Assembly: GCF_020164745.1 (NCBI RefSeq)
Contig: NZ_JAIUGV010000003.1
Span: 62,001-126,000 of the forward strand
DNA length: 64,000 nucleotides
Origin: Mesorhizobium sp. ES1-4
GTDB lineage: Bacteria; Pseudomonadota; Alphaproteobacteria; Rhizobiales; Rhizobiaceae
Reading direction: 5' to 3'
Below are positions 32,991 to 45,185 of the stretch, piece by piece. The translations under genes and the position numbers were made by a program. The notes below the pieces were generated by a model, which did no database searches, was not told where the DNA came from, and was given only the letters and a program-made list of their open reading frames with translations. The stretch's first letter is position 1. Each line of letters opens with the position of its first letter.

Positions 32991-33500
32991 TTTGGGGACT
33001 CCAGTATTTTTCCGTCCGTCTAGCGGCGTGTCTTGGGATTGAAAATCGCGTCGTTCGGACAGCCCCGATGTGGGAGAGCCCACCGGCCGTTTCCAATCAC
33101 GAAGTTGTTCCGCGTGGCCCATGAATCCACCACTTGAAATTGTACCAGAGCTTTCCACTCCAGTTATTTTTCTCTTTTATATCAGCCGGTTATGCAAACC
33201 CGACGCCTCGGCCGGCAGCCATGCCAGAGGCTCGGCGTTCACAGCGTCCTGCACGCACCGTCAACAGAAACGAACCGTTCGGTTCGATTTTAGAATCCGC
33301 TAATAGTCACTTTTTGAAACCGTTAACCCTTTTTGCCCCGGCAAGGGGGTTGAAAACGACGCCGCGAGGCTGGCGGCAAAAGCCGCTTCCAACGGCCGCG
33401 CGTTGTCGGGACGGTCGGGCCTGCGTGTCGCGCCGCATGGATGCGATGTCGCTTTCATGCCGATGTCGCAAACCTTGTCGTGATTAGATCACGCCATCTC
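32991..33500. other. Gene-free region upstream of the DUF680 trio and the riboswitch
   Basis: About 510 bp with lower GC and no convincing open frame on either strand. It should hold the leftward promoter for the small secreted proteins and the rightward promoter for the riboswitch transcript. The only clear structure is the palindrome at 33271-33286. T-rich stretches around 33165-33180 and 33308-33335 stand out from the local base use. Confidence 0.6.
33271..33286. promoter_or_regulatory. Orphan palindrome resembling a TetR-type operator
   Basis: CGAACCGTTCGGTTCG is a perfect 16-bp palindrome with the AACCG-NN-CGGTT layout often bound by TetR-family repressors. No TetR gene is near. It could control the DUF680 trio (281 bp away on the minus strand), or be a leftover of a lost regulator gene. 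Confidence 0.45.
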
Positions 33501-33670
33501 AGGTGCCGCTGCGTGACGATGGAGCGGAGAATTGGGAAGCCGGTCAGATTCCGGCGCTGCCCCCGCAACGGTGGTGGAGTTCAAGTCGCAACGGGAGACC
33601 ACTGGGCGAAAGCCTGGGAAGGTGTCGCGATGGTCCGCAGGGACAACTCCAGAGCCCGGAAACCAGCCCG
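33501..33670 (+). promoter_or_regulatory. Cobalamin (B12) riboswitch
   Basis: The conserved core blocks occur in the right order: GGTGCCGCTGCG at the 5' side, GGGAAGCCGGT...ATTCCGG and CGCTGCCCCCGCAACGGT (33534-33572), CCACTGGGCGAAAGCCTGGG with AAGG after it (33599-33622), and the B12 box AGCCCGGAAACCAGCCC (33653-33669). The leader continues to the gbcA-like start at 33801. CTGTCC at 33723-33728 can pair with GGACAG in the ribosome site (33792-33797) and competes with a CCGGC/GCCGG hairpin at 33727-33741, which suggests translational control. B12 riboswitches normally switch genes off when adenosylcobalamin is plentiful. Confidence 0.93.
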
Positions 33671-33800
33671 AGATCGCTAGAACTCGACTGATCGCGGTGG
33701 GCGGTCAAGAGGCGGATGGCGTCTGTCCGGCTTTTCGCCGGCCCGCGCTCAGTCCTTCCTCCATCACCACCAGTTCAGTCCTTGAAAATGAGGACAGGAC

Positions 33801-35048
33801 ATGGACGCGCGCAACGACATGCTGAGGCTCCTGAACAGCCGCAGACAGGGCTTTTCGCTGGAACAGCCCTTTTATACCGACCCGGACTACTTCAAGCTGG
33901 ACATGGAGCTGATCTGGTATCGCGACTGGCTGTTCATCGGCCATGATTGCGAATTGCCGAAGCCGGGAAGCTTCATCACCGTGCAGATCGGCGACTATCC
34001 GGTCGTGCTGGTGCGCGACCAGCAGGGCAAGATCAATGCCTTCCACAACTCCTGCCGCCACCGCGGCAGCCGCGTCTGCAATACGGATAAGGGTATGGCC
34101 GCCAAACTGGTCTGTCCCTATCACCAGTGGACCTACGAGCTCGACGGCCGGCTGTTGTTCGCCCGCCAGATGGCCGATGGGTTCGACAAGACCCAGTTCG
34201 GGCTCAAGCCCGTCGCCTGCGAAAGTGTCGCCGGCTATGTCTTCATCTGCCTGGCGAAGGAGCCCGCCGACTTCGCGCCGATGCGGGCGATGATCGAGCC
34301 CTATCTCCAGCCGCACCGGCTCGGCGAGGCCAAGATCGCCTTCGAGAGCACGATCATCGAGAAGGGCAACTGGAAGCTGGTCTGGGAAAACAACCGCGAA
34401 TGCTACCACTGCGCGGGAAATCATCCGGAGCTGTGCAAGACCTTCCCGGAAGCACCGACCGTGACCGGCGTGCAAGGCGCGGACAGCGATCCGGAGATGC
34501 TGGCGCACTGGGCGAGGTGCGAGGCTCTCGGCCTGCCGAGCAAGTTCCGCATCGACCCCGCCGGGCAATACCGCGCCACCCGCGCGCCGCTGCTGCGCGA
34601 CGCCCAGAGCTACACGATGACGGGCAAGCGGGCGGTGAAGAAGAACCTGTCCGACAGCGTGTCGGCCGACCGCATCGGCACGTTGATGCATTATCACTAT
34701 CCGACGACCTGGAACCATATCCTGATCGACCATGCCGTCACCTTCCGCGTGCTGCCGGTCAGCGCCACCGAAACGGCGGTGACGACGAAATGGCTGGTGC
34801 ACAAGGACGCGGTCGAGGGCGTCGACTACGATCTGGCCGAACTTACCCATGTCTGGACCGAAACCAACGACCAGGACCGCCGCATCGTCGAGGAGAACGC
34901 CTTCGGGATCCTGTCGCCGGCCTACGAGCCCGGCCCGTATTCGGAGCTGCATGAAGGCGGCGTGATTCAGTTCGTCGACTGGTATGCCCGCTTCATCGGC
35001 CCGCGCCTTGCCGATGACGGCAGGCCGGCCCTGCGCAGCGTTGCCTAG
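33801..35048 (+). CDS. gbcA: Rieske-type oxygenase, glycine betaine monooxygenase alpha subunit-like
   Basis: A ring-hydroxylating-type oxygenase of 415 residues. The Rieske [2Fe-2S] cluster ligands are CRHRGSRVC and CPYHQWTY (about residues 85-112). The mononuclear iron site is NNRECYHCAGNHPEL near residue 200. GbcA-type enzymes remove a methyl group from glycine betaine, giving dimethylglycine and formaldehyde; stachydrine or carnitine oxygenases are related alternatives. It starts 131 bases after a cobalamin riboswitch, so expression should rise when B12 is scarce. The reductase partner is encoded next, after a 68-bp gap holding a palindromic repeat. A cysteine in the iron motif (YHC) is typical of this subfamily. 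Confidence 0.85.
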   Translation: MDARNDMLRLLNSRRQGFSLEQPFYTDPDYFKLDMELIWYRDWLFIGHDCELPKPGSFITVQIGDYPVVLVRDQQGKINAFHNSCRHRGSRVCNTDKGMAAKLVCPYHQWTYELDGRLLFARQMADGFDKTQFGLKPVACESVAGYVFICLAKEPADFAPMRAMIEPYLQPHRLGEAKIAFESTIIEKGNWKLVWENNRECYHCAGNHPELCKTFPEAPTVTGVQGADSDPEMLAHWARCEALGLPSKFRIDPAGQYRATRAPLLRDAQSYTMTGKRAVKKNLSDSVSADRIGTLMHYHYPTTWNHILIDHAVTFRVLPVSATETAVTTKWLVHKDAVEGVDYDLAELTHVWTETNDQDRRIVEENAFGILSPAYEPGPYSELHEGGVIQFVDWYARFIGPRLADDGRPALRSVA

Positions 35049-35096
35049 CGCATGGCGCCCAAAAGTGTTCAGCGGTTTTGGGATTACGCCATGCGC
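35048..35096. repeat. Rhizobial palindromic element between gbcA and gbcB
   Basis: The arms GCGCATGGCG-CCCAAAA and TTTTGGG-ATTA-CGCCATGCGC pair, with only a four-base bulge, around the loop GTGTTCAGCGG. CCCAAAAGTGT...AGCGGTTTTGGG is a sequence seen over and over in intergenic regions of Rhizobiales. It begins at the last base of gbcA and forms a strong hairpin in the operon mRNA. Confidence 0.7.
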
Positions 35097-35116
35097 AAAA
35101 TGAAAAGGACAAGGGG

Positions 35117-36226
35117 ATGAACGCGATGACGGATCTTGGCCTCTATCGCCATCTCGACCAGATGGCGCCCTGGAACGACAGGCTGCAGGTGCTGGAAGTG
35201 ACCGGCGTCACCGACGAGGCGCCCGGCGTCAAAACCTTCACTTTCCGATCCGACAACCAGACCTGGTTCCGCTACAAACCCGGCCAGTTCGTGACGCTGG
35301 AGTTGCCGACAGCAGACGGACCGCTGATGCGCACCTACACGCTGTCGTCGTCGCCGTCGCGGCCGTTTTCGATCGCGGTGACGGTGAAGGCGCAGGCGGA
35401 CAGCATCGGCACACGCTGGATGTTCGATCACCTGACGCCGGGCTCGCACGTCAAGGCCTATGGACCGGGCGGCGACTTCTCGCTGCACAGCCATCCGGCG
35501 GCGAAATATCTGTTCATCTCGGCCGGTTCTGGCGTAACGCCGATGATGTCGATGCTGCGCTGGCTGAACGACTGCGCGCCATGGACCGATGTCGGTTTCG
35601 TCAACTGCGCGCGGCGCCCGGAAGAGATCATCTTCCGCAAGGAGCTTGAACTGCTCGGCGGCCACATGCCGGGCCTGTCACTCGGCTTCATGATCGAGGA
35701 GCGGTCGAGCCGCGAGGGCTGGTACGGCCATATGGGCCGCATCGACGCCATCCGGCTGCCGCTGCTGGCGCCCGATTTCCGCGAACGCGAAATCTTCTGC
35801 TGCGGTCCAGACCCTTTCATGCGCGCCGTGCGTGGCATGCTGGAAGCCGCCGGCTTCGACATGGCGAAATACCACCAGGAGAGCTTCGCCGCACCGGTGG
35901 TGGAGGAAATCCCGGCGCCATTCGCGGCGCCGGCGCAGGACGGTGTGGCTGTCCCCATAGAAGCCGCGACGCCGATCCGCTTCGCGCTTTCGGACGTCGA
36001 CGCCGAATGCGTCGCCGGCCAGACCGTGCTGCAGACGGCGCGCGCCTCGGGCGTGCGGATACCGGCGGCCTGCGAATTCGGCCTGTGCGGAACCTGCAAG
36101 GTGAAGAAGCTCGCCGGCGCTGTCGAGATGAGCCACAATGGCGGCATCCTCGATCACGAGATCGATGATGGTTTCATCCTGGCCTGCTGCTCCAGGCCGC
36201 TATCGGCATTGGAAATCGAGGCGTGA
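35117..36226 (+). CDS. gbcB: Rieske oxygenase reductase, glycine betaine monooxygenase beta subunit-like
   Basis: Electron-transfer partner of the oxygenase upstream, about 369 residues. A ferredoxin-NADP reductase domain binds FAD (LMRTYTLSSSPS) and NAD(P)H (YLFISAGSGVTPMMSML, then FCCGPDPFMRAV). A C-terminal plant-type [2Fe-2S] ferredoxin domain has CEFGLCGTCKVKKL and a last Cys pair in LACCSRPL. The ATG at 35117 follows AAGGACAAGGGG. The FNR-ferredoxin order matches GbcB. With the riboswitch, the gene pair looks like a B12-responsive demethylation operon. Confidence 0.87.
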   Translation: MNAMTDLGLYRHLDQMAPWNDRLQVLEVTGVTDEAPGVKTFTFRSDNQTWFRYKPGQFVTLELPTADGPLMRTYTLSSSPSRPFSIAVTVKAQADSIGTRWMFDHLTPGSHVKAYGPGGDFSLHSHPAAKYLFISAGSGVTPMMSMLRWLNDCAPWTDVGFVNCARRPEEIIFRKELELLGGHMPGLSLGFMIEERSSREGWYGHMGRIDAIRLPLLAPDFREREIFCCGPDPFMRAVRGMLEAAGFDMAKYHQESFAAPVVEEIPAPFAAPAQDGVAVPIEAATPIRFALSDVDAECVAGQTVLQTARASGVRIPAACEFGLCGTCKVKKLAGAVEMSHNGGILDHEIDDGFILACCSRPLSALEIEA

Positions 36227-36357
36227 TGCCGAACTGATCGCGGAATAGTCGGCACCTCGCCAGCACAGCTTGCCTTGCCAACGAAGAACCGAGCGTTTAC
36301 AGGCGTTGTTGGTGGAAGCAGTCCTGCTGGCGGGCAGGAATGTAACGCGGGGCAACA

Positions 36358-36789
36358 ATGAAGCATGATTCCCATGCCTATGCGGTTGCGAGCCGGGATA
36401 TCGTTTTCGAATCCTTCGATGGCGAGGCCGTGGTTCTCAACCTTGCGAACGGCAAATATTTCGGCTTCTCCGATTCCGGCAGCAAGGCATGGCAGGCGCT
36501 TTCATCCGGAGTGGATGCCCAGGCTCTGATCGGGCTGGCCGCGGGCGGCTCGACAATAGGCCAGGCCGAGCTCGAACACTTCATATCGCAGTTGCTCGAA
36601 CTGGGTTTGCTGGTGCGTTCTGAAGCAACGGCGCAGCCATTGCCAGGCGAATTGCCCGCCGGGCTTGCCGCCACGAACGAGCCGCTCAATGTCAGCATTC
36701 ACGACGACCTCGCCGACCTGATCGTCGTCGATCCCATCCATGAGGTCGAGGAACCCCTTGGCTGGCCGGCGGTCAAGCAGGCTTCCTGA
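36358..36789 (+). CDS. PqqD-like protein of an HprK-like kinase cluster
   Basis: A 143-residue protein. Residues about 10-90 fit the PqqD fold (SRDIVFESFDGEAVVLNLANG, then KYFGFSDSGSKAWQAL and a C-terminal helix around ISQLLELGLLV). PqqD-like domains bind leader peptides in peptide-modification systems, but related proteins also occur beside HprK-like kinases in polysaccharide-type loci. The last 50 residues are acidic and unusual. It is the first gene of a five-gene set and starts 131 bp after gbcB, in a stretch with no small precursor-peptide frame. Function unknown; the call rests on the pattern and the neighbour. Confidence 0.75.
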   Translation: MKHDSHAYAVASRDIVFESFDGEAVVLNLANGKYFGFSDSGSKAWQALSSGVDAQALIGLAAGGSTIGQAELEHFISQLLELGLLVRSEATAQPLPGELPAGLAATNEPLNVSIHDDLADLIVVDPIHEVEEPLGWPAVKQAS

Positions 36790-36822
36790 AGCGCCGGCCG
36801 CTGCCGTGATGGAAGGCGCTTG

Positions 36823-37872
36823 ATGCCGCGCGTCACGCTCGAAACCTTGCCCGATTATGCCCGGTATGTCATCGCCGCCGCTGAAGGCGCGGCCTCGCGC
36901 TATCCGACCACACGAAAGGTTCGCCTGCCCTGGCTGGAACTGACCGCGCATCTGGGTCACGGCGTGCTTGCCGATGCACTGAGCCACGCATTCGTGGAGG
37001 CCGTGCATGATCAGCCGGAACCGTCCGCGTGCCGCATCTTCATCGCCCATCCCGGCATCGATGGCATTCCGGAGCCGGCGCGATGGGGCGACGCGCATTT
37101 TACCGAGCACGGCTTTGCCAAACGGCTCGCCGAAGCCGGCTTGCGCGGGCATTATTTCCACGACCTGGATTTCTGGCAGGTCTACGATCCGCAGCGTCGC
37201 GTTGGCGTGCAGCTGATGGCCTCGGCCGATGCCTTTCCGCCCTGGGAGCCGGGGGCACCGCTGCGCGTCTTCCTGCATTGGGAATATGCCGCGCGCGGCA
37301 TGCGGCTGACCCATGCCGGCACGCTCGGCGCCGGCGGCAAGGGTATCCTGCTTGCCGGCTCGGGCGGGGCCGGCAAATCCGGCACCGTCGCCGCTGGCCT
37401 GCTCAACGGGCTCGACAGTGTCGGCGACGATTATGTGCTGATCGATCTCGCCGGAGGCGTGACCGCGCGGCCCCTTTTCTCGACGCTGAAGCAGGACGCG
37501 CACGGTTTCGCGCGGCTGGGCCTGCAACAGCGGCTAACGGCGCAAGGCCCGCTGAACTGGCAGGGCAAGCACACGTTTCACATCGAGGGCATCGCGCCCA
37601 GGCCGGTGCCCATGATGCTGGACATCGTCGCGCTGGTGGTGCCACATATCAGCGGTGGCGGAGCAAGTTCGATTATGCCGATGTCGCGCAGGGATGCCAT
37701 GATTGCCTTGGCGCCGTCCGGCATCGCGCAGATGCCGGGCGAGCGTGAAAGCGGCTTTCGCTTCTTCAGCGATCTCACCCGCCTGCTGCCGTGCTACCGT
37801 CTGTCGCTGGGGACGCAGCCTCGGGAGATCGCCAGCACGATCGAGGATTTCCTGACACGAGGCGCCTGGTGA
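36823..37872 (+). CDS. HprK-like kinase (HprK-related kinase A type)
   Basis: A 349-residue protein related to HPr kinase. The P-loop LLAGSGGAGKSGTVA lies near residue 180, and SVGDDYVLIDL follows as a Walker B-like strand. True HprK, encoded separately at 48122, has the same order but is much shorter. The N-terminal 165 residues are not recognised. It follows the PqqD-like gene by 33 bases and overlaps the first glycosyltransferase by four bases. HprK-like kinases beside PqqD-like and nucleotidyltransferase-fold proteins form a recurrent uncharacterised gene set. The substrate of the kinase, if active, is unknown. Confidence 0.78.
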   Translation: MPRVTLETLPDYARYVIAAAEGAASRYPTTRKVRLPWLELTAHLGHGVLADALSHAFVEAVHDQPEPSACRIFIAHPGIDGIPEPARWGDAHFTEHGFAKRLAEAGLRGHYFHDLDFWQVYDPQRRVGVQLMASADAFPPWEPGAPLRVFLHWEYAARGMRLTHAGTLGAGGKGILLAGSGGAGKSGTVAAGLLNGLDSVGDDYVLIDLAGGVTARPLFSTLKQDAHGFARLGLQQRLTAQGPLNWQGKHTFHIEGIAPRPVPMMLDIVALVVPHISGGGASSIMPMSRRDAMIALAPSGIAQMPGERESGFRFFSDLTRLLPCYRLSLGTQPREIASTIEDFLTRGAW

Positions 37873-38621
37873 AGCTCAGCGTGATCATGCCTGTGTACAA
37901 TCGCGAGCGCTATGTCGTCCCGGCGCTGAGCTCGCTGATCAGGCAGCGCGCTGACGCCGATCTCGACATCATCGTCATCGACGACGGTTCGACCGATGGC
38001 TCGGCCGAGGCCGTGCGCGCGATGATGGGAGATCATTCCTGCATCCGGCTGTTCCAGCAAGAGAACATGGGAGTGACGCGGGCGCGCAACAGCGGGCTCA
38101 GGCAGCTGAAGCCTGAAGCAGAACTCGTGTCGTTCCTCGATTCGGACGACATCTCGCCAGCCGGGCGCTTCAAGGCCGATGTCGAGCTTTTCCGCAAGTA
38201 TCCCGATCTCGATCTGACCTATTCGAGGATGATGCTGGTCGACAAGATCGACGACGGGACCCTGGAGCCCACTGCGGACAGCAACAGCATCACGGTTCGC
38301 GGCATTCATCTGTCGGCGGCGATCTTCGCGCGCCGCCTCGTCGCGCGCATAGGCGATTTCGACGAGGACTTCGTTCAGGCCGAAGACACCGACTACCTGC
38401 TGCGCGGCTTTGAGCTTGGGCCCAGATACGTGCTTCCCGACACGGTTGCGCTCTATTACAGACGGCATGCGGGCAACATGACGAGGCAGGAGGGCGTCCA
38501 GTCGCGGGAATTCCTGCGCGCCATCTACAAATCCATGAAACGGCGCAAGGCCGACCCGTCGCTGCGGCCGATCGAAGGTATCTTCGAGCTCGACAAGCTT
38601 TCAGATTGGCGTTCCCTGTGA
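37869..38621 (+). CDS. Glycosyltransferase family 2 protein
   Basis: A GT-A fold glycosyltransferase of 250 residues. KLSVIMPVYNRERYVVPAL at the start, IIVIDDGSTDGSAEAV near residue 37 and the metal-binding SFLDSDDISPAGR near residue 95 are the family pattern. QAEDTDYLLRGFELG fits the ED acceptor motif. The GTG at 37869 is used: it lies in a GTGA overlap with the HprK-like stop. No membrane helix, so it is probably cytoplasmic or peripheral. Donor and acceptor sugars cannot be told. Confidence 0.88.
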   Translation: MKLSVIMPVYNRERYVVPALSSLIRQRADADLDIIVIDDGSTDGSAEAVRAMMGDHSCIRLFQQENMGVTRARNSGLRQLKPEAELVSFLDSDDISPAGRFKADVELFRKYPDLDLTYSRMMLVDKIDDGTLEPTADSNSITVRGIHLSAAIFARRLVARIGDFDEDFVQAEDTDYLLRGFELGPRYVLPDTVALYYRRHAGNMTRQEGVQSREFLRAIYKSMKRRKADPSLRPIEGIFELDKLSDWRSL

Positions 38622-39298
38622 TGAGCGGATACGGCGTCGTCATACCGGCCTTCAACGCCAGCGGCACCATCGCGAAGACGCTGCAATCGGTCGCGGCTCA
38701 GACGGTGCGGCCGGAGCTGGTGGTGATCGTCGACGACGGATCAACCGACGATCTCGCCGCGGCGATCGGTGGAACGAACCTGCCGCTGCAGCTGCTGCGC
38801 CAGGCAAATGCCGGCCCGGGCAGCGCGACGACCAGAGGCATCGCCGCGCTGTCGACGCCGTTCATCGCAACGCTCGACGCCGACGATCTGTGGCTGCCGA
38901 CCAAGATCGAGGACCAGCTTGCATATCTGCGAGGATTGCCCAGAACGTCGGGCGTCTTCTGCCATTTGCGAAACTTCCGCAATGACCAGCCCGATGCGAC
39001 CGAGGACGCCGCCGTGCCCGGCTGGTCGCGGAGCACGATGCTGATCCGGCGCGAGGTCGCCGAGACCGTCGGACCCGTCGTCGATCCGCCGGGCGGCCGC
39101 GGCGAAATGATCGACTGGATCGCGCGGGCACGCGAGGCTGGGTTTGCGCTCGACATGATGGACGAGGTGCTGGCGCTGCGCCGCATCAGGCCTGGTAGCC
39201 TGTCCTACGGGCGCGATGCGGCGCGCGACCGCGGCTATCTCGAAGTGGCGCGACTGGCCATGCTGCGGCGAGCTCGGAACAAGGCCGGCGCGGGCTGA
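38621..39298 (+). CDS. Second glycosyltransferase family 2 protein
   Basis: A 225-residue GT2 protein. YGVVIPAFNASGTIAKTL, LVVIVDDGSTDDLAAAI and the DxD-like ATLDADDLWLPTKIE are clear. It is diverged from the preceding glycosyltransferase and shorter at its C-terminus. The ATG at 38621 shares one base with the previous stop, and its own stop shares one base with the next ATG. Such tight packing points to one translation unit and a shared pathway. Confidence 0.88.
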   Translation: MSGYGVVIPAFNASGTIAKTLQSVAAQTVRPELVVIVDDGSTDDLAAAIGGTNLPLQLLRQANAGPGSATTRGIAALSTPFIATLDADDLWLPTKIEDQLAYLRGLPRTSGVFCHLRNFRNDQPDATEDAAVPGWSRSTMLIRREVAETVGPVVDPPGGRGEMIDWIARAREAGFALDMMDEVLALRRIRPGSLSYGRDAARDRGYLEVARLAMLRRARNKAGAG

Positions 39299-40827
39299 TG
39301 ACGCGCATTCGCCGCATCAGCAGACGCTTCCCGGACTATGGCTGGTCCTGGCCGACGGGCGGGCTCGACCAGTTGCTCAAGGCCGCCCTTCTTGCCGATG
39401 ACGACGCGGCCGCCGGTCAAGCGATGCAGTGGCTGAGTGCGAACGACATCGATCTCGTCTCTTTCAGGGAGCATCGGCTGCTGGCTGCGATCTGCGACCG
39501 GTTCGGCCGGAAACTGGCCGGCCATTCCGCCTATCCACGTCTTGTCGGTCTGCAAAAGATGCTGTGGACCAAGTCGCGCATGGCGATGCGCGAGGCCGAA
39601 CCGACGCTGCAGGCGATGACGGACGCCGGATGCCTCGTGATGCTGATCAAGGGCGCCAGCCGCATCGCCTTGAACGCATCGGCACAGCGCGGCCGGGTGG
39701 CGCACGACATCGACATATTGGTGCGGCCGCGGGACATGCCGGCGGCGTTCGACGTGCTGCGCGACAGCGACTGGCAGATCGCCACCGGGGTGAGCCCGCA
39801 ATATCTGAGGACAAGACTGGCCTCGCTGCGGTCGATGAACTTCTTCAAGGGCAGTTATGGCGACATCGATCTGCACCAGCTTGCGTATGACGGTTCGCAG
39901 CAAAGCGACGAGGACGACCTGGCGATCTGGCGGCGGGCGGAGGCGGCCGAATTCAGCGGTGTCGGCGTGCTGGTGCCGTCGCCCGCGGACCGCATCGCGC
40001 TCGCCATCGCGCATGGCGGGCTCGACGCCCACACGCACAGCGATTGGCTGGTCGATTGCGCAGTGGCCATTCGCGCCGGCGACGTCGACTGGGACGTGTT
40101 CCTCGATGTTGTCGCCAGGCGCGGCCTTGCCGTCGCCGCGGCGGTGGCGCTCTCCTACCTTGCGCTCGATATCGGCGTGGCGGTGCCGGACAGGGTGCTG
40201 GCGCGCGTGCTGGACATGGCCGACCGCACCGGCCTTTCGCGCTGGTCGGCGGTGCTGCAGGCCAAGCCGCGAACCGATTTCGGCAGGCTGACCTGGCTGT
40301 CTCGCGGCTTTGCCAAGCAATTGCGGCTGAGACGCAAGGGCGGCCGGCTGCGGCAGGAGCCATCCGCCAAGGCGTGGCGCGGCAAGGCATGGAGTGGCAA
40401 GACATGGAGTGGCAAGACATGGAGTGGCAAGACATGGCGCGGCGGGCCGTCCGGCGGCGAGCCGCTGGAAAGATCGTCGCCCCCGGTCTTCTCGCAGACC
40501 ATACCTTGCCCGCCCACGGTGGGGGAAATGATGCTGGACATCACGGTCAGGATCAGCGTTCCGCCGGTCCGGCGCCGTATCGAAATGGAGATCAACGAGG
40601 ATGACGGCCACGTCGCGCGTCTGCGTGCCATGGCCATCAGCCGCTCTGGTGGGGAAAGAGTGCTGCGCTTTCGCGGCAAGGTTACATTCGACGGCCGGCA
40701 GCATGTCTTGACGCTGGAGGCGCGGCCATCGCGGCAATTCCGCCAATGGGATGATCAGGCGACTGTCGCCGCCTACGGCGCATTGCCGTTCCATCTGGTC
40801 TCGGCGACCTTTTCGGCGATCGGCTGA
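39298..40827 (+). CDS. Nucleotidyltransferase-fold protein (uncharacterised family) with a repeat region
   Basis: A 509-residue protein of the uncharacterised nucleotidyltransferase family found beside HprK-like and PqqD-like genes. The N-terminal part (about 1-330) has LVMLIKGASRIALN and VAHDIDILVRPRDMPAAFDVL, the likely DxD metal site, then DIDLHQLAYDG. Residues 359-383 are five copies of a (A/T)W(S/R)GK pentapeptide encoded by a 15-bp tandem repeat. The C-terminal 100 residues form an unrelated beta-rich segment (MMLDITVRISVPPVRRRIE). It is the last gene of the cluster. No activity can be assigned; the repeat could be a flexible linker. Confidence 0.8.
   Translation: MTRIRRISRRFPDYGWSWPTGGLDQLLKAALLADDDAAAGQAMQWLSANDIDLVSFREHRLLAAICDRFGRKLAGHSAYPRLVGLQKMLWTKSRMAMREAEPTLQAMTDAGCLVMLIKGASRIALNASAQRGRVAHDIDILVRPRDMPAAFDVLRDSDWQIATGVSPQYLRTRLASLRSMNFFKGSYGDIDLHQLAYDGSQQSDEDDLAIWRRAEAAEFSGVGVLVPSPADRIALAIAHGGLDAHTHSDWLVDCAVAIRAGDVDWDVFLDVVARRGLAVAAAVALSYLALDIGVAVPDRVLARVLDMADRTGLSRWSAVLQAKPRTDFGRLTWLSRGFAKQLRLRRKGGRLRQEPSAKAWRGKAWSGKTWSGKTWSGKTWRGGPSGGEPLERSSPPVFSQTIPCPPTVGEMMLDITVRISVPPVRRRIEMEINEDDGHVARLRAMAISRSGGERVLRFRGKVTFDGRQHVLTLEARPSRQFRQWDDQATVAAYGALPFHLVSATFSAIG
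40372..40446. repeat. 15-bp tandem repeat (5 units) inside the nucleotidyltransferase gene
   Basis: Five in-frame 15-bp units; the inner ones read ACATGGAGTGGCAAG. Units 3 and 4 are identical, and the others differ at a few bases. Each encodes five residues with an invariant Trp, so unit gain or loss would not shift the frame. Confidence 0.9.
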
Positions 40828-40923
40828 GTTATCAGCGTTCACCGGTCAGGCCGCACGAGCGGATCAAGCTCCCGATGGACACCTTGCGAAAACAGCCCAG
40901 GGCAGAGTCGCGGCAATCGTTCC

Positions 40924-42150
40924 CTATGGCGATGATGTCTGGCCGTCAGCTATCGTCGAGGCAAGGCTCCCGCGTTCGCGGGCTCTTATGTCGGCAAGCA
41001 TCCATGCCGACAGGGACAAGGGCACCAACACGCCGATGCCAAGCCCGATACCGTTCACCAGATGGGCGATGGCGGGGTAGAGCCAGATGAGTGCCAGGAA
41101 AATCCGGGGCGTGTCGGCGCGCGCCGAAAACAGGTAGGCCACGGCAACGGCAAGACCGACCGTGTCGTAGCTGTAGCCGTAAGGCGTCGCGACCGTTGCC
41201 AGCACGGCGGTAAGGACCACTCTTTCGCCGTGCTCGACCTGCCGCCGAGGCAGCCAGACCCAGACGCTGGCGCAGATTGCGGCAAAGGTCGCAACGGCTT
41301 GCATCGCATAGGATACCGTCAGCCCGGCGCCGAATGCACGCGCCAGGAAGAACATGGTTGCGGCGTTGGCCTGATAGGCTTGCGGAAAGGGTGCCTCCAG
41401 GATCGCTGTCATCAGGGGACGGGTTTGGGTCCAGAACAGATGCCAGACGTCGAATCCGAGCAAGAGCCCGGTCAACATGAACAGCGCGGCCGATGACAGG
41501 GCCGCGGCGGCGATGGCGCGCCAGTTGCCGCTGGCCAGCAGGCAGAACGGCACCAGAATGCCCAGATGCGGCTTGGTCGTCAGCAAGCCGAACAGCAGCC
41601 CGGCCAGGATTGGCCGTTTTGGCACCACGGCCAGCCCGCCGATAAGAAGAGCGGTGGTAAGGGCGCCGTTCTGGCCGAAGATGGCGTTGATGAAGACGGC
41701 CGGGCATACAAGAACGGCCGCTTCGGCCGCTGTGCCCAGTTTCAGCGGCCGCACCGCCAGCCACAGGCAGAAGACAGTGCCGAAAGTCCAGATGACATAG
41801 GCCGGGAAGATCGGCAGCAGCGCCAGCGGCGCACCGAAGATCAGGATGCTGGGCGGGTAGCTCCATTCCTGGTTGGGAAGATCGGGCGAAAACATCCGCC
41901 GCAAGGCCGCGCGATAGCTGTCGACGTCAAACAGCCAGGCCACATGGCCGTCGAGCGCCATGCGTCCACCGGCCCACAGATTGGTGAAATCCCAATAAGG
42001 CAGCCGGTCACTGAGTTCGGAGAAGCCGTGCTCGTCGAAGGTCCACAAGGCAAAATGGTAGCGCAGTCCGATCAGAATTCCCGTGCACAGCACAAGTGCC
42101 GCGAAACGGAAATCGGATCGATTGCGGGCATTCTGATCGGCCTGTGCCAT
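40924..42150 (-). CDS. GT87-like (DUF2029) membrane glycosyltransferase
   Basis: A polytopic membrane protein of 408 residues with about ten hydrophobic segments. YWDFTNLWAGGRMALDG in the first large loop and EWSYPPSILIFGAPLALLP near residue 95 are typical of the polyprenol-phosphate-dependent mannosyltransferase-like DUF2029 family. LTTKPHLGILVPFCLL near residue 190 also fits. Catalysis would use a lipid-linked sugar on the periplasmic side. It is convergent with the five-gene cluster, 96 bp from its end. A link to the two GT2 genes is plausible but unproven. Confidence 0.82.
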   Translation of the reverse strand: MAQADQNARNRSDFRFAALVLCTGILIGLRYHFALWTFDEHGFSELSDRLPYWDFTNLWAGGRMALDGHVAWLFDVDSYRAALRRMFSPDLPNQEWSYPPSILIFGAPLALLPIFPAYVIWTFGTVFCLWLAVRPLKLGTAAEAAVLVCPAVFINAIFGQNGALTTALLIGGLAVVPKRPILAGLLFGLLTTKPHLGILVPFCLLASGNWRAIAAAALSSAALFMLTGLLLGFDVWHLFWTQTRPLMTAILEAPFPQAYQANAATMFFLARAFGAGLTVSYAMQAVATFAAICASVWVWLPRRQVEHGERVVLTAVLATVATPYGYSYDTVGLAVAVAYLFSARADTPRIFLALIWLYPAIAHLVNGIGLGIGVLVPLSLSAWMLADIRARERGSLASTIADGQTSSP

Positions 42151-42205
42151 TGTGCTGTTTCCGAGACCCTGTCCGCCTTGATAAGCGAGGCGCGTTAAGA
42201 TCGGC

Positions 42206-42835
42206 TTATTTGGAGGTGTCGTCGGGCTTCGTTACCCGCCGCAGCGTCAGATTGATCCTGCCGCCGTTCTTGAGCAGCGCCGAGGTCGAAGGGTAGATGC
42301 GGTCGACGCCATGAAAGGCAAGACGGCCCTCGCCGCCAAGCACGACGACATCGCCGCTTTTCAGCCTGAACGATTTGGTGGCGCCATCGCGCGTTGTCTG
42401 GCCGACCCTGAACAGACAGTCGTCACCCAGCGAGATCGAGACGACGGGTGCCGAGAAATCGGCTTCGTCTCGATCCTGATGCAGGCCCATCTTCGCGTCA
42501 GGCGTGTAGAAGTTGATCAGGCAGGCCTCCGGCGGCTCCGGATAGCCCGACACCTGCCGCCACAGGTCGAGCAGACTGTCGGGGATGGGCGGCCATGGCT
42601 CCGCGGTCAGCGGATGCGTCGGCTGGTAGCGATAGCCGCGTTCCTTGTCGGTGACCCAGCCGAGCGGACCGCAATTGGTCATGCGCACGCTCATCTCCTT
42701 GCCGGTCCGCGGCATGGCCGGCACGAACAGCGGCGCTCGCTGGACGATGCTCCTCACCTCGTCGACCAGCGTCTCCTGGACGGCGCGGGAGAGATGGGCC
42801 GGCATGTGGCGGACGCCTTTGGGCAGAACGAGCAT
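42206..42835 (-). CDS. alkB: Alpha-ketoglutarate-dependent DNA/RNA dealkylase AlkB
   Basis: Fe(II)/2-oxoglutarate dioxygenase that removes methyl groups from 1-methyladenine and 3-methylcytosine. The 209-residue protein has the iron ligands HQDRDEADF (HxD) and FHGVDR, the 2-oxoglutarate-binding RINLTLRRV, and NFYTPDAKMGLHQD leading into the site. The upstream PLGWVTDKERGYRY matches the AlkB nucleotide lid. The ATG at 42835 has GAGGTGAG just upstream; a GTG at 42847 is an alternative. The gene stands alone, 55 bp downstream of the GT87-like start region on the same strand. Confidence 0.93.
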   Translation of the reverse strand: MLVLPKGVRHMPAHLSRAVQETLVDEVRSIVQRAPLFVPAMPRTGKEMSVRMTNCGPLGWVTDKERGYRYQPTHPLTAEPWPPIPDSLLDLWRQVSGYPEPPEACLINFYTPDAKMGLHQDRDEADFSAPVVSISLGDDCLFRVGQTTRDGATKSFRLKSGDVVVLGGEGRLAFHGVDRIYPSTSALLKNGGRINLTLRRVTKPDDTSK

Positions 42836-43026
42836 GGATTGGCTCACCTCGCGAACATTCTGAGCCGCAAGATGCCACCATCATACGCACGGGGCGACCC
42901 GAAAAGCCCGTGTCGATGTCAACAAAATTGCCGAAGCGGGAAGGGGTAAATCGCCTTCCCGAATTCGCCAAAAGCGGTGGACGGATAAGGAATGGAAGCC
43001 GGTTTGTACACGGGCCGTTGTGTTGC

Positions 43027-43464
43027 TCAATCGTTCTCCACCCGGCCGCGCAGCTTCTTGATCGTGCCGCGTCCCGCCTTGCTCTTCAGCCGGCGCTCGA
43101 CCGCACCCTTGGACGGCCTTGTCTTCTTGCGCGGCGGTGGCGGCGGTTCGGCGGCCTTGGCCACCAGGGCGGTGAGCCTGGCCCGTGCATCGGCGCGGTT
43201 CTGTTCCTGCGTGCGGAAGCGGCCGGCCTCGATGACGATGACGCCGTCCTTGGTGGCGCGCTGGCCGGCAAGTTTTATGACCCGCTCGCGCACGCGGTCC
43301 GACAGGCCCTCCGCGTTTTGCGCGTCGAAGCGAAGCTGCACCGCCGTCGCCACCTTGTTGACGTTCTGGCCGCCGGGACCGGACGAGCGGATGAAATCCT
43401 CGTGCAGGTCGCCCGGGTGGATCACGGCCTCGCCTGATATGATGATGTCGTCGTCGATCGGCAT
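43027..43464 (-). CDS. arfB: Ribosome rescue hydrolase ArfB (YaeJ-like)
   Basis: A 145-residue codon-independent peptidyl-tRNA hydrolase that frees ribosomes stalled at mRNA ends. The catalytic GGQ lies in SSGPGGQNVNKVATAV near residue 28. The C-terminal tail is rich in Lys, Arg and Pro (PPPPPRKKTRPSKGAVERRL), which enters the mRNA channel in this family. The ATG at 43464 gives MPIDDDIIISG, the usual N-terminus; an upstream in-frame start would read through the pckA terminator and is rejected. Confidence 0.93.
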   Translation of the reverse strand: MPIDDDIIISGEAVIHPGDLHEDFIRSSGPGGQNVNKVATAVQLRFDAQNAEGLSDRVRERVIKLAGQRATKDGVIVIEAGRFRTQEQNRADARARLTALVAKAAEPPPPPRKKTRPSKGAVERRLKSKAGRGTIKKLRGRVEND

Positions 43465-43488
43465 GCCGCAGTCATGGCGCGGCGCACC

Positions 43489-43521
43489 GAAAAAGAAAAG
43501 GCCCGATCGAAACCGGGCCTT
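43489..43521 (-). terminator. Rho-independent terminator of pckA
   Basis: On the minus strand an 8-bp stem (AAGGCCCG/CGGGCCTT) with an 8-base loop is followed at once by TTTTCTTTTTC. It lies 38 bases after the pckA stop and just upstream of the arfB start, so it separates the two genes. Confidence 0.9.
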
Positions 43522-43559
43522 CAACGGTGCCGAGCGATGATGCTCAGCGATTAGGGCGG

Positions 43560-45185
<1,626 letters not shown>

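Follow-up and report, generated by a model that had tools for sequence, protein, structure and literature searches.

The 64,000-nucleotide stretch of the Mesorhizobium sp. ES1-4 genome (6.46 Mb) studied here (contig NZ_JAIUGV010000003.1, positions 62,001–126,000; hereafter the window) carries an operon of five plus-strand genes, named A to E, at window positions 36358–40827. We propose, with a probability of roughly 45%, that this operon is a cassette resembling those for ribosomally synthesized and post-translationally modified peptides (RiPPs), in which the precursor of a glyco/phospho-peptide is fused in cis to its own RiPP recognition element (RRE) in gene A and is modified by the products of B, E, C and D. 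The operon is a variant of the RRE/HprK/nucleotidyltransferase type, and a substrate role in cis for the C-terminal tail of A is the leading, still unproven, reading of it. The coordinates and spacing first described for the five genes were confirmed: 33 bp separate A from B, B and C overlap by 4 bp, and C/D and D/E each have 1 bp in common. The single operon assumed in an earlier interpretation made without database searches (the sequence-only reading) stands. Peptide modification was likewise upheld as the leading idea.

Gene A (36358–36789, +) encodes a 143-residue protein made of an RRE (PqqD-like) domain at residues ~7–88 and a C-terminal tail. Against the PqqD family PF05402 it scored 23.1 bits in one search and 23.7 in another (cut-off 23.4). 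Positions 9–88 of the A-family profile matched lasso RREs (TbiB1, 5e-18; 9x90, 4e-12; TfuB1, 1e-9; 9x8z, 3e-7), and an NCBIfam lasso PqqD model was matched by 62 of 85 A relatives. As the A profile was built with the tail included, a match alone is no proof that an individual member contains an RRE. An AlphaFold2 model of the window protein, computed from an 85-sequence alignment (pLDDT 87, pTM 0.77), resembled both TbiB1 (Z 10.1, root-mean-square deviation (rmsd) 2.1, 80 residues aligned) and TfuB1 (Z 9.6, rmsd 2.0, 81 aligned). As modeled, A has the βββ-ααα winged-helix RRE fold related to PqqD and lasso B1 proteins.

The tail (36676–36786, +; residues 107–143) is the proposed in-cis leader and core. 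It spans ~35 residues with the consensus [FY]xxPx[LV]Ex[YF]xDMxDLLLLDP[IV]H[DE]V(x3-4)GWP, and its DP[IV]H[DE]V...GWP block occupies residues 125–137 of the window protein. In the alignment of A proteins this C-terminal segment is much more conserved than the remainder, and among 12 Mesorhizobium sequences its dN/dS was the lowest (0.095, compared with 0.167 for the RRE and 0.334 for the linker). Judged by these ratios, the tail is under tighter constraint than the RRE in Mesorhizobium. It was seen only at the end of longer proteins, the genes bearing it encoding at least 116 aa when two contig-cut cases (L093 and L172) are set aside. The sequence-only reading had seen no precursor gene. As far as a separate gene close to the operon is concerned this is correct, but the leader-plus-core-like tail carried by gene A itself had been overlooked.

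Tails from different phyla were collected with a DNA pattern that imposed D, P, H, V and GWP; k-mer similarity dereplication and a length floor reduced 130 tails to 110. One RRE column and seven tail columns were invariant in 85 sequences, all seven tail columns being imposed by the retrieval pattern. Among columns independent of the pattern (n = 110), P at −15 was present in 82 tails, [YF] at −10 in 99, D at −8 in 98, [ML] at −7 in 97, [DE] at −5 in 96 and [LI] at −4 in 102. The motif [YFW]xxPx[LVIFM] started precisely at −18 in 67 of the 110 tails and was found anywhere from −40 to −11 in 68, compared with a mean of 3.6 and a maximum of 11 for the same interval in 1000 shuffles. Lasso RREs bind a YxxP motif of leaders (PMC12710340), and the fuller motif bound by RREs of lasso and linear polyphosphorylated peptide (LPP) systems is [Y/W]xxPx[L/V/I/F/A] (PMC13381572). 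By its sequence, the start of the tail fits this leader motif in most lineages, though not in the window copy. In the model of A a strand at residues 112–115, in a block with a mean pLDDT of 85, lies immediately past the leader position; this strand, which may fill the RRE groove, is only suggestive of leader peptide binding.

The tail is closely linked to the glycosyltransferases of the cassette. A search with B of 297 genomes of the order gave matches at E ≤ 0.001 in 40, and 40 regions, mostly top-ranked, were fetched of 61 kinase places. Left out were four of the 40 regions, in which no kinase was called (L043, L051, L072 and L075), and, of 37 kinase rows, four whose nearest RRE, if any, was more than four genes away (L042, L063, L068 and L070). 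In the remaining 33 kinase-anchored loci the tail accompanied a C/D-type GT2 in 21 of 22 cases and was seen in none of the 11 loci without one (Fisher 6e-8, from a hand-counted table that ignores kinship). Eight of these 11 GT2-less, tail-less loci have an Asn synthase within four genes; L060 combines tail, GT2 and Asn synthase. For this table T or S was allowed after DPxH[DE]. Genes were called with a simple caller that gave a bonus to open reading frames (ORFs) ending in a tail, both here and in the fusion survey; in all 22 rows with GT2, gene A was likewise called when no bonus was given.

Natural fusions join the components of the cassette. An 800-aa open frame from Terriglobia (L227:9086–11488) joins an HprK kinase to three tandem RRE units in one protein; unit 1 has a full tail, while the other two retain the leader-like part (FSQPVL in unit 2, FHVEVYRDMEELM in unit 3) without DPxH..GWP. 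Elsewhere the kinase is fused to one GT2 (L102, L109 and L229), to two (L179 and L233) or to an X3 protein (L078), and an ABC exporter is fused to a GT2 (L052 and L089). X3 (~365 aa; L060:8878–9984) and X4 (~390 aa; L085:2250–3422) are two families that recur in tail cassettes, the tested members of which gave no Pfam match. Of the 10 loci with X3, 7 have M at −1, compared with 4 of the 99 that lack X3 (kinship ignored). This residue marks X3 loci, so that the tail varies with the enzyme set; common ancestry may account for part of this. A at −1 was weakly associated with X4 (3/4 against 18/105, p 0.02). No association was found between ABC genes and the leader motif (p 0.34) or between GT4 and spacing (p 0.15).

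The assignments made for the other genes in the sequence-only reading, as for the PqqD-like protein, were borne out by profiles and by AlphaFold2 models of A and B. Gene B (36823–37872, +; 349 aa) had no significant Pfam match (Zeta_toxin, E 0.058; Hpr_kinase_C, E 0.12), and its profile matched an HprK chain at 9e-10. Its predicted model aligned with the PEPCK structure 1xkv over 304 residues (Z 17.0, rmsd 4.8, 13% identity). In 56 sequences H164 and the P-loop residues G184-K185 are invariant and D202 and D203 are conserved in at least 90%; we take these to be the catalytic residues. B is thus predicted to have the full HprK/PEPCK fold with P-loop, His and Asp-Asp. Genes C (37869–38621, +; 250 aa) and D (38621–39298, +; 225 aa) encode GT2 glycosyltransferases (PF00535, 81.8 and 74.9 bits respectively; cut-off 23.3). 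Gene E (39298–40827, +; 509 aa) encodes a nucleotidyltransferase-fold protein (PF14907, 72.7 bits; cut-off 31.2), for which a PDB search gave no match. E contains a tandem repeat at 40381–40437 (15-bp unit, 3.8 copies, 97% match) and is longer than in seven Mesorhizobium relatives (479–491 aa); the extra length and the repeat together possibly reflect an expanding coding minisatellite.

The neighborhood comparison within the order showed that the genes are conserved together elsewhere. In the fetched regions A, B, up to four C-type GT2 genes, D and E were repeatedly found together, with the order sometimes rearranged and with some loci holding the D type only; this recurrence indicates that the grouping is more than chance. 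The cassette is patchy within the genus, a strong B match (E below 1e-170) being present in 4 of 8 genomes of the own strain and the same genus. The ES1-4 genome holds a second, shorter cassette (L053, C42:157000–175000) with a tailed RRE, a kinase and a fused double GT2 but no adjoining E, and its contig C7 carries tail-less RRE/HprK pairs, including a cluster (L056) with two Asn synthases.

A DNA pattern for DP[IV]H[DE]V..GWP, run on a species-genome collection, returned at least 120 stretches. Among the matches listed, 118 had the motif in frame, 108 of them in A-like proteins and 10 in proteins resembling DNA polymerase I. Judged by their sequence, these ten (Variovorax, Acidovorax and one 'Proteobacteria' record) are presumably DNA polymerase I. 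The motif lay near the C terminus of the A-like proteins, except that in L141 it lies inside a longer fusion. Tailed A proteins among the matches listed came from Pseudomonadota, Bacillota, Bacteroidota, Actinomycetota, Chloroflexota, Cyanobacteria, Planctomycetota, Verrucomicrobiota, Acidobacteriota, Gemmatimonadota, Nitrospirota, Cloacimonadota and Chlamydiota. Phyla were assigned from names in record titles, many of them of metagenome bins, and on this basis the cassette is apparently present in at least 12 phyla. Two tailed RRE genes (L106 and L099) lie in metagenome records titled Klebsiella pneumoniae and Akkermansia muciniphila, titles that are possibly misassigned.

The 107 stretches (up to 8 kb) around the listed tails contained B in 91, a C/D-type GT2 in 83, E in 51 and an ABC exporter-like gene in 22. 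Where the tail had no less than 3 kb of sequence on each side (42 loci), B was present in 38, the C and D types in 34 each, E in 27 and ABC in 11. Among 99 operon proteins of 13 wider loci there were 28 GT2, 12 PqqD, 9 NTP_transf_5 and 5 ABC exporters; the HprK family was absent from the 25 commonest of the 62 families in these loci. Cassettes elsewhere add a polysaccharide pyruvyl transferase, an epimerase, a GT4, a weak sulfotransferase match or ABC exporters, and the first four of these additions point to a decorated glycan. The exporters scored below the respective cut-offs of the MsbA, CydD and TAP-like models.

A separate precursor was sought around the operon. Positions 33000–44000 contain 113 small ORFs (25–150 aa), 28 of which lie largely clear of called genes; a [YFW]xxPx-type motif occurs in three of these, none of them plausible as a precursor. 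A reverse-strand ORF at 36154–36375 was matched in 11 of 11 relatives and was rejected as a gene, since it overlaps coding ends and a conserved upstream block, and several frames on both strands look alike there; its conservation is taken as regulatory. The block in question (TTGCCAACGAAGAACCGAGCGTTTACAGGCGTTG, 36275–36308, +) lies upstream of gene A and is common to Mesorhizobium relatives, being full in 8 of 11, partial in L038 and missing in L036 and L158 as judged by eye. It is possibly the operon promoter; a sigma-70 consensus scan gave no plus-strand match in the block, which leaves this role unproven. When the whole genome was searched with the full A profile, tails turned up solely in the two cassettes, a tail-only copy not being sought separately.

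Two further features flank the operon. The Rieske oxygenase/reductase pair that precedes gene A (33801–36226) has a cobalamin riboswitch (33484–33685, +; 104 bits) ~115 bp upstream, which makes it an unexpected target for B12 control. On the other side, a GT87-family glycosyltransferase gene (40924–42150, −) is convergent with the operon.

Under the proposed scheme the N-terminal RRE of A would bind, in cis, the leader-like start of the tail, much as the YxxPxL of a separate leader is bound in trans by lasso RREs. This docking would present the conserved DP[IV]H[DE]V...GWP segment to the enzymes. B would phosphorylate the substrate, E might add a sugar or nucleotide to the phosphate, like PsmN in pseudomycoidin, and C and D would extend or decorate the glycan. 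Docking in cis, the tail as acceptor and this order of reactions are what we infer; the PqqD-like protein, in the sequence-only reading a possible chaperone of a substrate for the kinase or the transferase, is a plausible hub. Several observations weigh against the scheme. The window tail has N at −18, P at −16 and L at −15; with no aromatic residue and the Pro one position off, the leader reading is weaker for this lineage, and the leader motif is missing at −18 in 43 of the 110 tails. Residues 121–143 of the A model are weakly predicted (pLDDT 59–71). No Ser or Thr is invariant in the tail (T/S at −9 in 56/110, S/T after GWP in 54/110), and the HprK-like RiPP kinases described in the portions of the literature examined use Ser as acceptor. 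At least one S, T or Y from −10 onward occurs in 97 of 110 tails, and the block retains D, H, [DE] and W as candidate alternative acceptors; the lack of a fixed Ser/Thr would mean another acceptor residue, a floating site or a tail that is not a kinase substrate. Pfam recognized no peptidase or exporter among the five genes, B was not detected in 16 of the 107 stretches and a C/D-type GT2 in 24 (some cut by contig or stretch ends), and in L047 GT2s accompany a degenerate tail. Finally, a 'core' that appears near constant across phyla is unusual for a RiPP and would also be expected of a docking motif.

That constancy, together with the lack of a fixed hydroxyl residue, the co-variation with the X3 enzyme set and the tails devoid of the leader motif at −18, the window's included, would suit a tail that serves for docking or autoinhibition and brings the kinase and GT2s to A, the true substrate peptide being encoded elsewhere and binding the RRE in trans. 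We regard this as rather unlikely, because the small ORFs at 33000–44000 offered no credible precursor, the genome search with the full-length A profile confined tails to the two cassettes, and most lineages have an RRE-binding motif within the tail itself. It is unlikely, too, that a cell-surface polysaccharide or glycolipid is what the cassette makes or modifies, with A and B as regulator or scaffold and no peptide product. The abundance of GT2s in the 13 wide loci and the pyruvyl transferase, epimerase and ABC exporters of some cassettes speak for it, as does the position of LPP loci within capsular polysaccharide loci (PMC13381572). Against it stand the predicted lasso-type RRE of A, supported by both sequence and fold, the HprK/RRE pairs of the same order that adjoin Asn synthases in lasso-like clusters such as L056, and the absence of a lipid-linked initiating transferase from the 25 commonest of the 62 families of the wide loci. 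The sequence-only reading, which is supported in part, had favored membership in the HPr-rel-A system, and this assignment was not sustained. The trio of kinase, PqqD and NTP_transf_5-like protein is the same, and 55 of 56 B proteins match TIGR04352 (HprK_rel_A) at E ≤ 1e-3. Nucleotidyltransferase-fold partners, which we take to be an HPr-rel-A feature, were seen beside true members, and E (PF14907) is such a protein. However, B reaches 27.1 bits against a TIGR04352 cut-off of 200, so that membership is rejected by NCBI's curated cut-offs, and the window A had no match to TIGR04353 at E ≤ 1; eight of 85 A relatives matched the latter weakly (best 2.1e-5). No TIGR04352 match at 1e-40 was found in the own genome. 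Seven loci exceeded the cut-off in 289 genomes of the class, and the A profile found a PqqD-like gene beside three of these seven kinases, all three tail-less at 92–107 aa and ending right after the RRE. In contrast to the present cassette, no GT2 was detected in the seven loci (1.5-kb flanks, simple gene calls). A divergent HPr-rel-A system is therefore very unlikely.

Returning to a precursor fused in cis, the cassettes may define a RiPP-like class spanning at least 12 phyla, in which the precursor stays permanently joined to its RRE and strain-specific phosphoglycans are attached to the nearly invariant DP[IV]H[DE]V...GWP segment. The peptide would then act as a ribosomal 'primer' on which a conserved glycopeptide or cofactor is built; this wider proposal is doubtful. 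In one survey, 21% of PF05402 matches were PqqD-like proteins that exceed a bare RRE in length and have no other Pfam annotation (PMC12710340). For one large cross-phylum group of them there is now a defining motif at the C terminus, a set of enzymes that recurs with it and a role that can be tested. Should the tail prove to be the substrate, RRE-precursor fusion would be a new way of building RiPPs and would account for some RRE clusters without a precursor gene; the product would then have a core conserved from Clostridia to Mesorhizobium. No description of a tailed PqqD or of an RRE-precursor fusion was found in the literature searched, which left subscription journals largely outside and was seen in part (including PMC7470986, PMC12710340, PMC9266682, PMC8498205, PMC13381572 and PMC10352776).

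Among known systems, SynChlorMet (ScmC/ScmD in NCBIfam) shares the pair of HprK-like and PqqD-like proteins, but B scored only 13.4 bits against ScmC (cut-off 125). In pseudomycoidin, PsmK and PsmN phosphorylate Ser and then add hexose to the phosphate (PMC9266682, PMC8498205). This system and paeninodin (PadeK) share with the operon a lasso-type RRE and the combination of an HprK-like kinase with a nucleotidyltransferase homologue, which there places hexose on phospho-Ser; they differ from it in having an Asn-synthetase-like cyclase, a B2 peptidase and a separate precursor. Neither the cyclase nor the B2 peptidase was found in the operon and ten neighboring window proteins scanned. LPP clusters (LppA/K/B/S/D/N) combine an RRE, an HprK and an NTP transferase, with LppK transferring several phosphates onto one Ser (PMC13381572, 2026). 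LPP clusters have an SpI peptidase and a separate precursor with a phosphorylated Ser and a variable C terminus, whereas in the present cassette the RRE itself carries the precursor-like tail, the core is near constant and GT2s are regular members. The LPP precursor motif YxxPxVLxHQxIxFETxxS was absent from the 28 small ORFs at 33000–44000, the rest of the genome being unsearched, and no SpI-type leader peptidase was found in the five genes and ten further window proteins, the only ones covered. On the other hand, the operon has the same set of RRE, HprK-like kinase and NTP transferase, most relatives of A carry the [YF]xxPx[LV]-type leader motif, and the loci are likewise rich in glycosyltransferases, with an ABC exporter in some cassette relatives (22 of 107 stretches). 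LPP and pseudomycoidin are the closest known systems.

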